Source: Alicyclobacillus shizuokensis NBRC 103103 (GTDB lineage: Bacteria; Bacillota; Bacilli; Alicyclobacillales; Alicyclobacillaceae). From it: DNA of 50,101 bases. The notes under the pieces are model-generated. The model worked only from the letters and a program-made list of their open reading frames with translations. It was not told where the DNA came from and did not search any database. Of the stretch, positions 22,144-25,034 are shown piece by piece (position 1 is the stretch's first letter; every line of letters begins with the position of its first letter). A program made the position numbers and the translations under genes. The DNA is taken from the NCBI RefSeq assembly GCF_001552255.1, contig NZ_BCQV01000035.1, forward strand, positions 1 to 50,101. The letters are read 5' to 3'.

Positions 22144-22177
22144 GCGCCGCATAGGTCCTGCTCAGACCATGCGGCGC
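22144..22177 (+). terminator. Terminator after the RocB-like gene
   Basis: GCGCCGCAT (22144-22152) pairs with ATGCGGCGC (22169-22177). GGTC/GACC extends the stem across one bulged A. The stem is followed by a T-richer stretch (TTCCTTTT). It ends 12 bases after the stop and faces the convergent sdpR-like gene. Confidence 0.7.
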
Positions 22178-22243
22178 GAGTTCCTTTTCGCCGCAAATCC
22201 CAGAACAACGGCGACAAGCATAGATTCCCACCACGGAATTGCA

Positions 22244-22525
22244 TTACTCTTTCTCATCGTTGTTCTCACCTCCAAAGTGCTTCATAAGCCATGCAAGCCA
22301 GTCTTGCAGAACTGTAGTGTTGAGCCTGTAAATAATAAAAGTGCCTTCCCGTTGATCAACAACTACATGCGCATTCTTGAGCACATTCAAATGACGACTA
22401 ATCGTTGGCTGAGCATGTGAAAAGTGGCTTGCTATCTCGCCGGCCGTTTTTGGTCCATCCTTCAACAATTCGATGATCTTCCTGCGTGTCGGATCGGACA
22501 TCGCCTTAAAAATCCCCTCATTCAT
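22244..22525 (-). CDS. sdpR: ArsR-family repressor, SdpR-like
   Basis: A 93-residue winged-helix regulator. The sequence IFKAMSDPTRRKIIELLKDG and the helix AQPTISRHLNVLKNAHVVV are those of SdpR-type autorepressors. No metal-binding Cys cluster is present. The ATG overlaps the stop of a six-codon leader ORF. It faces the DUF6323/DUF6179-type pair across a 300-base control region, so it may repress both itself and that pair. SdpR partners elsewhere include the SdpI immunity membrane protein, which is absent here. Confidence 0.8.
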   Translation of the reverse strand: MNEGIFKAMSDPTRRKIIELLKDGPKTAGEIASHFSHAQPTISRHLNVLKNAHVVVDQREGTFIIYRLNTTVLQDWLAWLMKHFGGENNDEKE

Positions 22526-22542
22526 CGGACTTCATCGTCCAT
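22522..22542 (-). CDS. Six-residue leader peptide coupled to sdpR
   Basis: GGAAGG lies six bases before an ATG that reads MDDEVR and stops. The TGA overlaps the repressor's ATG (ATGA). The repressor itself has a poor ribosome binding site, so its translation probably depends on ribosomes finishing this leader. Confidence 0.5.
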   Translation of the reverse strand: MDDEVR

Positions 22543-22592
22543 CACAGACCTTCCTTCCCCCGATGTGCGGGCACCTTCAATTTCCATACTTG

Positions 22593-22612
22593 ATTATATA
22601 GCTAAATGGCTA
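22593..22612 (-). promoter_or_regulatory. Probable sdpR promoter and operator
   Basis: On the minus strand TATAAT (plus positions 22593-22598) forms a consensus -10. The inverted repeat TAGC-N6-GCTA (22599-22612) lies in the spacer just upstream, where a bound repressor would block polymerase. The -35 (TTCAAT) is weak. Confidence 0.5.
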
Positions 22613-22707
22613 AACATTGAATGGGCGAATGTCGCGGAATCCACGCATCCATACCGTCAAAGCGCATATGCGAGTTACAAACGCACACGATAAAACTCCG
22701 AAATCCA

Positions 22708-22736
22708 TTGACACTGCCATGAACGTGCGGTAAAAT
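22708..22736 (+). promoter_or_regulatory. Sigma-A promoter of the unknown two-gene operon
   Basis: TTGACA (22708-22713), a 17-base spacer and TAAAAT (22731-22736) make a near-consensus promoter. The roughly 110-base leader contains AATTTATAT twice (22748-22756 and 22778-22786). It also has a hairpin CTTCAC-GGGA-GTGAAG (22832-22847) whose loop exposes the ribosome binding site of the first gene. Confidence 0.7.
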
Positions 22737-22851
22737 ACACACCACAAAATTTATATATCAATTTTTTATTGTATCACAATTTATATCCGATGTCAATGGA
22801 TATTTGAACGCTTGTGTGCCAAGAATTTGATCTTCACGGGAGTGAAGCCAC

Positions 22852-23325
22852 ATGTTACTGTCCCGCTTCCTCAACTCCATGAGCATTGCAACTCAAATGC
22901 CGTATGTAACAGAACTGCTCTCCCTAAACGAAAGGACCATGGCGTACAACCTGCAGCTAACCCCTCGTGACATTCAGGACTTGATGACGGCCAGAACTCA
23001 AGTTCTGTACAGTTACGGGCGAGTGGAATTGGGAATTGAAGCCACGAAAGAACTCATTGAAGTTTTTTCCACGTCCCCGTATATCTGTCAAGAGAACTAC
23101 CTCTCGACACTGAATGAACTTCACGAGATTTTCTATTACTTAAAAAACGAGACTGAAGACAAGATCGGCGATTTCAAGTTGATCGCGATGATGAAAGAAT
23201 ACTTTGACGACGAATGCGCGGGTTCCCTGAAACTGTTACGAAACAACCTTGAAGAGTTCGCTGAGAATTTCAGAATCCAGACCATGCGTCAAGAGTATCT
23301 GAAGGAAGGAGACGATGAATCGTGA
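22852..23325 (+). CDS. DUF6323-type protein of unknown function
   Basis: A 157-residue, mostly helical, acidic soluble protein without signal or membrane segments. Landmarks are LTPRDIQDLMTARTQVLYSY in the middle and YLSTLNELHEIFYYLKNETE. I recognise it as the small protein that accompanies DUF6179 proteins in spore-forming Bacillota. No function is known to me. Its stop overlaps the start of the next gene (GTGA), so both are made together, probably as a complex. Base composition is clearly more AT-rich than the metabolic genes around it, suggesting transfer. Confidence 0.7.
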   Translation: MLLSRFLNSMSIATQMPYVTELLSLNERTMAYNLQLTPRDIQDLMTARTQVLYSYGRVELGIEATKELIEVFSTSPYICQENYLSTLNELHEIFYYLKNETEDKIGDFKLIAMMKEYFDDECAGSLKLLRNNLEEFAENFRIQTMRQEYLKEGDDES

Positions 23326-24773
23326 TACCTGGCGACGCGGGCTATGCCGCAAGTGATAACCAGTCACTAACGTCCTCGAACGATATCAATCCATCACGGC
23401 TGAACAAGCATCAGTATACGCTCTCCCTCTTGAACGAAGCACAGCGCATTGGCCTGTTAAGCCATCAGGAAGTTTATAGCATCCAATATAAGTTGATGGT
23501 TATCTTGCAGGACCTGATTCGGCGGTACACACAGGGAAAAAGCTCGTCCGTTGCGACTGACACAGCGGAAAGCATCCTAACGTCCATCCTGTATGCCGTG
23601 GACGCTGATTTATTGAATTTTGAGCATCCCAATCAAGCAATCACCTACTTGAAAACAAGCGACGTTGTGAAACTCTATGAAAGAGGGGTGGAGCGAGTCA
23701 GTCAATGCCTCGAAGAGGTAAAGTCACTTTATAAAGAAGTCAAGCAACATAAGCTAGACGTTCCGGTCGCTGCCTACAACACGACGATTGATGAATCGTT
23801 ACCCCTATTTATAAAGAAATACAACATCCTATTCGAAGCCCATAACACAATGGCGAGCATTGATTATCCCTTGGCGATGGATAACATGCGCTTGCAGGGT
23901 GTCTTCTACATGAAGCACTATTTGGAGCGTCTGCAACTTGAGAATGAATTTTGCTCGAGATTTAACCCAAAAGCTCTGATTCATATCATGGAGAGTTTCG
24001 GACGGTTGCATAGATTTGATTACCGGATCGAGTTATTCAACATTTTTGAACTGTGTCTTCACAACTCCTTGTTCTCCATCCTATCAGGGGGTGACGCCGA
24101 CCAAGTTCAAATTTCAGCGCATCAATTCGAACGGTTGGAACGGATGCTCAGCCAATCGGATGCGCGCGGGATCGAAAAAATGATTCATACGTCTCTGAAG
24201 CGTCTCCAATACGCATTGCAAATCCATGACCCTCAGACGGTCGATTATATGAATCAATGTAGCAGGGAACTGATAGGACGTATTCTCAACGCAGCTAAAC
24301 ACGACAACCTACAATCCGTGATCATTACGGATAGACCAGAGAAAATCAAACCCGTTGTCATGTCCATCCATACAAGCAACAGAATGAGCGATGTCCGGTT
24401 GAGACAACTGCTCGACGAAGTGATTCGCAGCGAAACGAAGGAGGAGAAAATCCGACTTATCAAATCGAATTTCTCCTCCCTACACGATTACTTAGATCTG
24501 TTGGAAAGTGACTGCCTTTATGGAGATGAGTACGAAGCGCTATATGCCTCTTTTGGCGACGTGGAGCTTGCAATCCTGTCGAAAATCGTCTTTTACGAAG
24601 AGTTGCGGGGTGGAGACACCGAACTGCGAACCATCGTGTTCCAGAAGAAACGGGCCGAATTCGATTGGCAAGTACATCTCATTGAGTTCATGAAGCGTTT
24701 GAGTCCTTCCCGGGTCCATACGATTGAGCAACTGATCGATTCCATCTGCTATGAAGACATCAAGTTCAATTGA
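23322..24773 (+). CDS. DUF6179-type protein of unknown function
   Basis: A 483-residue soluble, almost all-helical protein. The N-terminal block LLNEAQRIGLLSHQEVYSIQ with LMVILQDLIRRYTQGKSSS is typical of this family and resembles a scaffold rather than an enzyme. No catalytic motif, nucleotide-binding loop or membrane segment is visible. The GTG start overlaps the upstream stop and GGAG lies about ten bases before it. With its partner and the facing repressor it forms a compact regulated unit. Family naming is from memory. Confidence 0.7.
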   Translation: MIPGDAGYAASDNQSLTSSNDINPSRLNKHQYTLSLLNEAQRIGLLSHQEVYSIQYKLMVILQDLIRRYTQGKSSSVATDTAESILTSILYAVDADLLNFEHPNQAITYLKTSDVVKLYERGVERVSQCLEEVKSLYKEVKQHKLDVPVAAYNTTIDESLPLFIKKYNILFEAHNTMASIDYPLAMDNMRLQGVFYMKHYLERLQLENEFCSRFNPKALIHIMESFGRLHRFDYRIELFNIFELCLHNSLFSILSGGDADQVQISAHQFERLERMLSQSDARGIEKMIHTSLKRLQYALQIHDPQTVDYMNQCSRELIGRILNAAKHDNLQSVIITDRPEKIKPVVMSIHTSNRMSDVRLRQLLDEVIRSETKEEKIRLIKSNFSSLHDYLDLLESDCLYGDEYEALYASFGDVELAILSKIVFYEELRGGDTELRTIVFQKKRAEFDWQVHLIEFMKRLSPSRVHTIEQLIDSICYEDIKFN

Positions 24774-24789
24774 TACGGGACGGGAAAGC

Positions 24790-24876
24790 ATGAAACAACC
24801 GCATCCGAAGCTGGAATGGGCACCCATTTTACTCCAATCACTCCATTGCCTCTTTGCACGTTACAGTCTTAGGTGA
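24790..24876 (+). CDS. Possible 28-residue ORF, perhaps the start of a truncated third gene
   Basis: ATG 24790 follows GGGAAAGC, 16 bases after the DUF6179-type stop. It encodes 28 residues (MKQPHPKLEWAPILL...) and then stops close to the IS1182-type relic. It could be the 5' remnant of a third operon gene cut by that element, or chance. Confidence 0.25.
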   Translation: MKQPHPKLEWAPILLQSLHCLFARYSLR

Positions 24877-24917
24877 TGGTGTAAATTCAGTGGTTTCTTC
24901 TTGACGAGAAAGCCACC

Positions 24918-25034
24918 GAGTGCAATGAACAAGCAGTGTACGAAAGGCGAGTAACCCTATTCAAGACGCCCATCGAAATCGGACTCGCAAGTTTAGCTCA
25001 CAATCTGATGAAGAAGGCGGCCTTATTAGGGTAG
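24918..25034 (+). mobile_element. IS1182-type transposase C-terminal remnant
   Basis: The plus strand reads VYERRVTLFKTPIEIGLASL followed by AHNLMKKAALLG and stop. This is the usual C-terminus of IS1182-like transposases. Only about 38 residues remain. A terminal-repeat-like hairpin follows at 25088-25133. Confidence 0.65.

Follow-up and report, generated by a model that had tools for sequence, protein, structure and literature searches.

A two-gene unit encoding a DUF6323 protein and a DUF6179 protein, preceded by two σA promoters that face each other, lies on contig NZ_BCQV01000035.1 of Alicyclobacillus shizuokensis NBRC 103103; the stretch of DNA that we analyzed, referred to here as the window, is 50,101 nucleotides long. 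What can be read from the DNA is a conserved two-gene unit, constant coupling of its members, and conserved face-to-face promoters. We propose, with a probability of roughly 0.4, that the pair is an RNA-polymerase-stress effector held off by antisense transcription. An earlier model-made reading of the letters (the sequence-only reading) had singled out the two genes as a candidate system whose conditional expression was implied by a neighboring SdpR-like repressor. We agree that the two genes make up a real candidate system, conditionally expressed, but the role given to the repressor was wrong; the second, opposing promoter on the minus strand was missed, as was a remnant of sdpI. The features on which the argument rests are the following.

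22708 to 22736, plus strand: sense σA promoter, TTGACA-N17-TAAAAT, located by pattern search; its placement is conserved in relatives
22768 to 22796, minus strand: antisense σA promoter, TTGACA-N17-TACAAT with an extended −10 TG, located by pattern search; it faces the sense promoter
22737 to 22851, plus strand: leader between the sense promoter and the pair, read from the sequence; it contains the antisense promoter
22852 to 23325, plus strand: DUF6323 protein of 157 residues (PF19848, E = 6.5e-46), predicted to be all-helical
23322 to 24773, plus strand: DUF6179 protein of 483 residues (PF19677, E = 3.5e-93), predicted to be all-helical

The start of the DUF6179 gene overlaps the DUF6323 stop by GTGA, and Pfam profiles confirm the family assignments made in the sequence-only reading: the proteins score 155.7 bits for DUF6323 (cutoff, 30.6) and 312.1 bits for DUF6179 (cutoff, 25). 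A Pfam scan of both proteins returned only PF19848 and PF19677 above cutoff, and the families themselves carry no function. AlphaFold models, each made singly and resting on 73 (DUF6323) and 75 (DUF6179) sequences, are almost wholly helical, as had been claimed, with mean predicted local distance difference test scores of 90.0 and 90.8. Foldseek matched neither model to the PDB at E ≤ 0.001. VIA-align gave a best Z of 7.4 for DUF6323 (5cwc, a designed helical repeat; root mean square deviation, 4.5; 140 residues aligned) and 4.8 for DUF6179 (7qtt_W; root mean square deviation, 17.7; 140 residues aligned), scores in the range of common helical arrangements, from which fold novelty does not follow. 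Profile and fold searches of the PDB produced no convincing relative of either protein; a weak resemblance of DUF6179 to Hsp33 (E = 0.0062 and 0.022, both below the cutoff) was set aside. Full-text literature searches by family name found no paper on the pair.

We surveyed 398 genomes of the phylum: 26 contain DUF6179, 24 contain DUF6323, and 23 contain both. Of the three genomes with DUF6179 only, G134 has a partial match on a contig of 4 kb, G228 a piece of 46 positions, and G323 a subthreshold match; the one with DUF6323 only (G195) holds a subthreshold match containing stops. Because DUF6323 and DUF6179 keep together across these 398 genomes, their designation as a two-protein system is well supported. 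An alignment scan of named genomes yielded at least 396 relatives of DUF6323, from which the best 80 by similarity to the window were taken as loci, so that distant members are undersampled; genes in these loci are mechanical longest-open-reading-frame calls. DUF6179 follows DUF6323 in 79 of these best 80 of 396, and the exception (L091) ends at a contig edge. In the 75 loci with calls for both genes (the window among them), the two share a strand, with gaps of −110 to +136 bases, most often −1 or −4. The gene picker missed DUF6323 in L032 and L050, where a genome profile scan finds it in both genomes, and in L098, L106, L110, L128, and L132. The pair genes are broken in the sister species A. 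kakegawensis (L063), and DUF6179 is split over two frames in L059; short DUF6179 forms of 236 to 307 residues (L046, L047, L049, L051, and L052) still come after DUF6323.

The ratio of nonsynonymous to synonymous substitution was 0.06 to 0.36 in the 9 of 10 gene comparisons that gave a value, and we take the pair to be under purifying selection. In a DUF6179 tree, the window joins two Paenibacillus sequences within a group of Bacilli, and the pair is seen to be spread across Bacilli and Clostridia. Two labels among the loci deserve a remark: L100 is a contig binned as Desulfuromonadales whose DUF6179 groups with Dethiobacter, and it is possibly misbinned, while the 2.63-Mb NZ_CP154629.1 (L002), labeled a plasmid, is probably an Acetoanaerobium chromosome. 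Pairwise distances of DUF6323 and DUF6179 are correlated (r = 0.85 over 2,556 pairs), as is expected for linked genes, and we do not use this correlation as proof of contact. The two proteins probably form a complex.

Facing promoters upstream of the pair

Pattern search bore out the consensus promoter that the sequence-only reading had assigned to the pair, and the antisense promoter matches the consensus as well as the sense promoter does. Promoters scored above threshold on each strand in 91% of 75 upstream regions, compared to 12% of resampled sequences; counted upstream from the start codon, the sense −35 mostly lies 120 to 145 bases away and the antisense −35 mostly 28 to 60 bases away. 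When both promoters were required, the arrangement was present at 60 of 72 pairs versus 24 of 1,100 other genes in the same DNA. A stricter set of control genes, having at least 150 bp of intergenic DNA and an upstream region not shared with the pair, gave 8 of 509 (Fisher P = 3e-60), and reversed sequence gave 0 of 72. Since the sequences are related, such P values overstate independence; the argument is carried by the spread across Bacilli and Clostridia together with the control genes. The count of 60 is a lower bound, as L100, L102, and L130 show both promoters once the start is refined; the arrangement is not clear in L063, L075, L077, L093, L096, L097, L115, L121, and L131. Two of the eight control genes with dual promoters (L106_11 and L132_13) are probably divergent neighbors of uncalled pairs. 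A second, partly overlapping set showed the arrangement at 15 of 22 pairs; those without it are the short forms in L046, L047, L049, L051, and L052, the full-length L048, and the broken L055.

An extended −10 is seen in the antisense promoter of 58 of the 60 positive loci and in the sense promoter of 26. The −10 boxes are separated by 31 bp in the window and by 20 to 53 bp in the family (median, 35), with 9 of 60 loci reaching 45 bp; Clostridium beijerinckii is an example of a leader with long spacing. In 40 of 60 loci, a terminator-like hairpin lies no more than 220 nucleotides behind the antisense start, compared to 36 of 300 shuffles.

We also searched for the exact pattern TTGACW-N17-TANNNT-N18..48-ANNNTA-N17-WGTCAA. 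It occurs once in the host genome, at the pair locus, and at no site in the genomes of 60 relatives. The 398 phylum genomes contain 43 sites in 42 genomes, versus 1 site for the backward control; by comparison of coordinates, 11 sites lie upstream of a DUF6323/DUF6179 pair (11 of the 23 pair genomes), and the remainder adjoin varied genes. Several of the exact sites (L158, L162, L163, L164, and L175) lie beside genes that, judged by eye, carry what we take to be the motif of Y-family DNA polymerases; some of these sites also lie beside XRE-like regulators, again by eye. Two other identities for the promoter region were discarded: the one Rfam match scored 21.6 bits against a gathering score of 71, leaving no known leader RNA, and the 166-bp region is single copy in the genome, which does not fit a repeated or mobile promoter element.

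Comparison with helD and pps

In Bacillus subtilis, helD and pps each have a pair of convergent promoters, of which the antisense one dominates and suppresses the sense one; at low rifampicin, polymerase is arrested on the antisense promoter and the sense promoter becomes free (PMC12802891). The authors suggest that unknown proteins behind dual promoters may represent new resistance mechanisms (PMC12802891). The window resembles these loci in having facing σA promoters within 300 bp upstream of a gene, in their similar placement before the start codon, and in an antisense promoter with an extended −10, a feature also described for helD (PMC12802891). As a positive control, our scanner found facing promoters at 11 of 30 helD genes, with −10 boxes 48 to 53 bp apart; these 30 scored best in a search of 200 genomes, in which 112 exceeded the cutoff.

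By analogy, we propose that transcription of the DUF6323/DUF6179 unit would be held down by the antisense promoter in its leader: in growing cells, polymerase firing from or sitting at that promoter would block the sense promoter; arrest or shortage of polymerase, as with rifamycin-type inhibitors or perhaps other transcription stress, would relieve the block, and the pair would be made. With less confidence, we suggest that the pair might protect or recycle RNA polymerase or otherwise counter the inhibitor. An acidic C-terminal tail on DUF6323 (mean net acidic surplus of 3.6 over its final 15 residues; 35 of 73 sequences reach 4 or more) is a suggestive hint, and no more than suggestive, of polymerase contact. 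A further reading, less likely than not, is that the pair is a new RNA-polymerase-protection or antibiotic-tolerance system in which the helical proteins jointly act on polymerase stalled by rifamycins or natural inhibitors like them, under a short-spacing, mutually exclusive version of the helD sensor.

Several points weigh against this proposal. The −10 boxes are 31 bp apart in the window, compared to 48 to 53 bp at helD, and so lie outside the 45 to 55 bp of the B. subtilis motif; shortening the distance between the helD promoters by 17 bp abolished induction (PMC12802891), and the spacing in the window falls in the range that fails at helD. For that reason we do not file the window promoters as a helD-type alarm; they are a related arrangement in which two polymerases would probably exclude each other. 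Short DUF6179 forms (236 to 307 residues) lack the dual promoter, no terminator was found behind the window's own antisense promoter, and the Pfam scan detected no polymerase-binding or drug-modifying domain in either protein. In L075 and L077, the antisense promoter was not seen, and the leader instead carries a strong, attenuator-like hairpin (about −16 and −17 kcal/mol) that precedes a T run; these hairpins suggest that what is kept is restraint between promoter and gene. The antisense spacer also differs, at 17 bp in the window versus the 19 bp reported for helD and pps (PMC12802891), and the downstream genes are others than at helD and pps. The rifamycin-associated element (RAE) of Actinobacteria, likewise found in leaders of rifampicin-response genes (PMC12802891), is a palindrome of 19 bp that some unknown factor possibly reads, whereas two full promoters are present here.

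As for HelD itself, the host and A. kakegawensis (G399) have weak best matches to the family (E = 1.4e-14 and 6.4e-14), and a third member of the genus (G398), which lacks DUF6179, has a full match (1,039.6 bits). The coincidence fits our proposal; three genomes prove nothing.

Somewhat less probable than our proposal is a reading in which promoter interference is real and responds to ordinary physiology (guanosine triphosphate [GTP] level, growth phase, supercoiling, or polymerase supply), the role of the pair being unrelated to RNA polymerase inhibitors. The short spacing of most members, which departs from that of helD, is consistent with such a signal, as are the GTP sensitivity of the antisense helD promoter and the induction during sporulation, both noted by the authors; at helD and pps, however, a response of this architecture to inhibitors has been demonstrated (PMC12802891). 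That the minus-strand promoter instead makes a small antisense RNA that pairs with the leader seems unlikely. The hairpins in 40 of 60 loci would yield short antisense RNAs, and predicted start sites (near 22743 on the plus strand and 22761 on the minus strand in the window) leave a short complementary overlap, but that overlap is brief indeed, about 19 bases in the window as estimated from predicted starts, and interference explains control at helD (PMC12802891).

A sporulation or spore-related role for the pair is still less probable. SpoIVA is present in 22 of the 23 pair genomes, but also in 314 of the 375 others (P = 0.23), and one genome (G030) has an intact pair and no SpoIVA match. Words recognized by σE, σF, and σG are not in excess upstream of the pair; σK-like words are raised (60% versus 28% of shuffles), perhaps because they overlap or resemble the σA −10.

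The SdpR-family repressor and the surrounding DNA

The repressor emphasized in the sequence-only reading lies upstream of the pair, on the opposite strand and 326 bases away, with two features of its own.

22244 to 22525, minus strand: SdpR-family repressor (NF033789, E = 1e-36), judged a bystander
22593 to 22613, minus strand: operator-like element TTAGCCATTTAGCTATATAAT, overlapping the repressor's own promoter
22162 to 22257, minus strand: sdpI remnant behind the repressor (31 codons), identified by eye against intact genes at related loci

Its assignment was correct: the protein scores 124.7 bits for the SdpR autorepressor family (NCBIfam cutoff, 100). So was the claim of an operator on the repressor promoter, where TTAGCCATTTAGCTATATAAT is the sole match in the window at up to 3 mismatches (chance expectation, 0.00); words similar to it precede related repressors, as judged by eye. 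The range given for the system, 22522 to 24876, nevertheless omitted nearly all of the repressor gene. Apart from its position upstream of the pair on the other strand, the evidence makes control of the pair by SdpR very unlikely. Across 60 related genomes, its nearest SdpR relatives show 78 to 85% identity in the 11 loci fetched, and an SdpI-like protein (PF13630, E = 2.2e-16 in L144) is encoded directly behind the repressor in 10 of these 11, with none within the DNA fetched for L152. The window's locus resembles such SdpR-SdpI immunity operons in its repressor and in the piece of sdpI that remains; it differs in that sdpI is truncated, and the DUF pair is no part of these operons. The 31-codon frame starts like SdpI-type proteins and then stops, the adjoining SdpR gene is apparently intact, and the SdpI profile has no match in the host genome.

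Comparison of loci points the same way. BLAST clustering of 80 other loci found no relative of the SdpR gene adjoining the pair; its cluster is represented in L057, L068, and L073 alone, and there farther away from the pair. The A. kakegawensis locus matches the window at 92% identity across the pair, which is broken there, and the promoter of the pair; nothing at that locus matches the repressor stretch. (There, in L055/L063, the promoter region is kept, and most of the neighboring M20 peptidase gene is missing.) Because its kin sit in sdpR-sdpI operons, its operator lies only at its own promoter, and it is absent from the A. kakegawensis locus, we judge the repressor to be a bystander with no part in control of the pair. 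The neighborhood survey suggested in the sequence-only reading divides: co-occurrence of DUF6179 and DUF6323 stood (both in 23 of 398 genomes, the strays being partial or subthreshold), and the repressor proved not to be a constant neighbor in the 80 loci. Conditional control of the pair likewise remains likely, its source being the opposing promoter and not the repressor.

Besides DUF6179, no other neighbor of DUF6323 recurs among the loci surveyed: any one Pfam family occurs in at most 3 of the 75 genes upstream and 3 of the 77 genes downstream. A same-strand gene ends within 60 bp upstream of the pair in 2 of 80 loci, and one starts within 60 bp downstream in 13 of 80. In the window, the flanking gene that had been labeled RocB encodes an M20 peptidase by Pfam, and the name RocB was not confirmed. 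Where the sequence-only reading placed an IS1182-type scar, a short frame at about 24890 to 25030 resembles the end of a DDE transposase, and a stretch similar to it is found upstream of the pair in A. kakegawensis, both judged by eye.

The AT-rich block described in the sequence-only reading is real (G+C content of 0.45 to 0.49, versus 0.56 to 0.68 in the kilobases around it). Together with the patchy distribution (26 of 398 genomes) and decay in A. kakegawensis, it might speak for a defense or mobile-element module, the least likely of the readings considered: PADLOC has no family matching either protein at E up to 1, although an undescribed system would escape that listing, a single PHROG match is weak (E = 0.039), no relative was found in 50,697 phage records or in one viral-contig scan, and the grouping of the window with Paenibacillus among Bacilli is as for descent with loss.

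Implications

The coupling of DUF6323 with DUF6179 and the promoters opposing each other in their leader are described here for two Pfam families without function. The opposing promoter turns an anonymous pair into a specific hypothesis, that its leader responds to RNA polymerase inhibitors. If the leader does respond, the dual-promoter alarm would gain a new type of effector, found in clades among which are Paenibacillus, Clostridium, and some Clostridioides lineages, and the spacing of the sensor would prove able to vary far more than it does at helD. Otherwise, the short spacing conserved here would reflect promoter interference that answers to a different signal.

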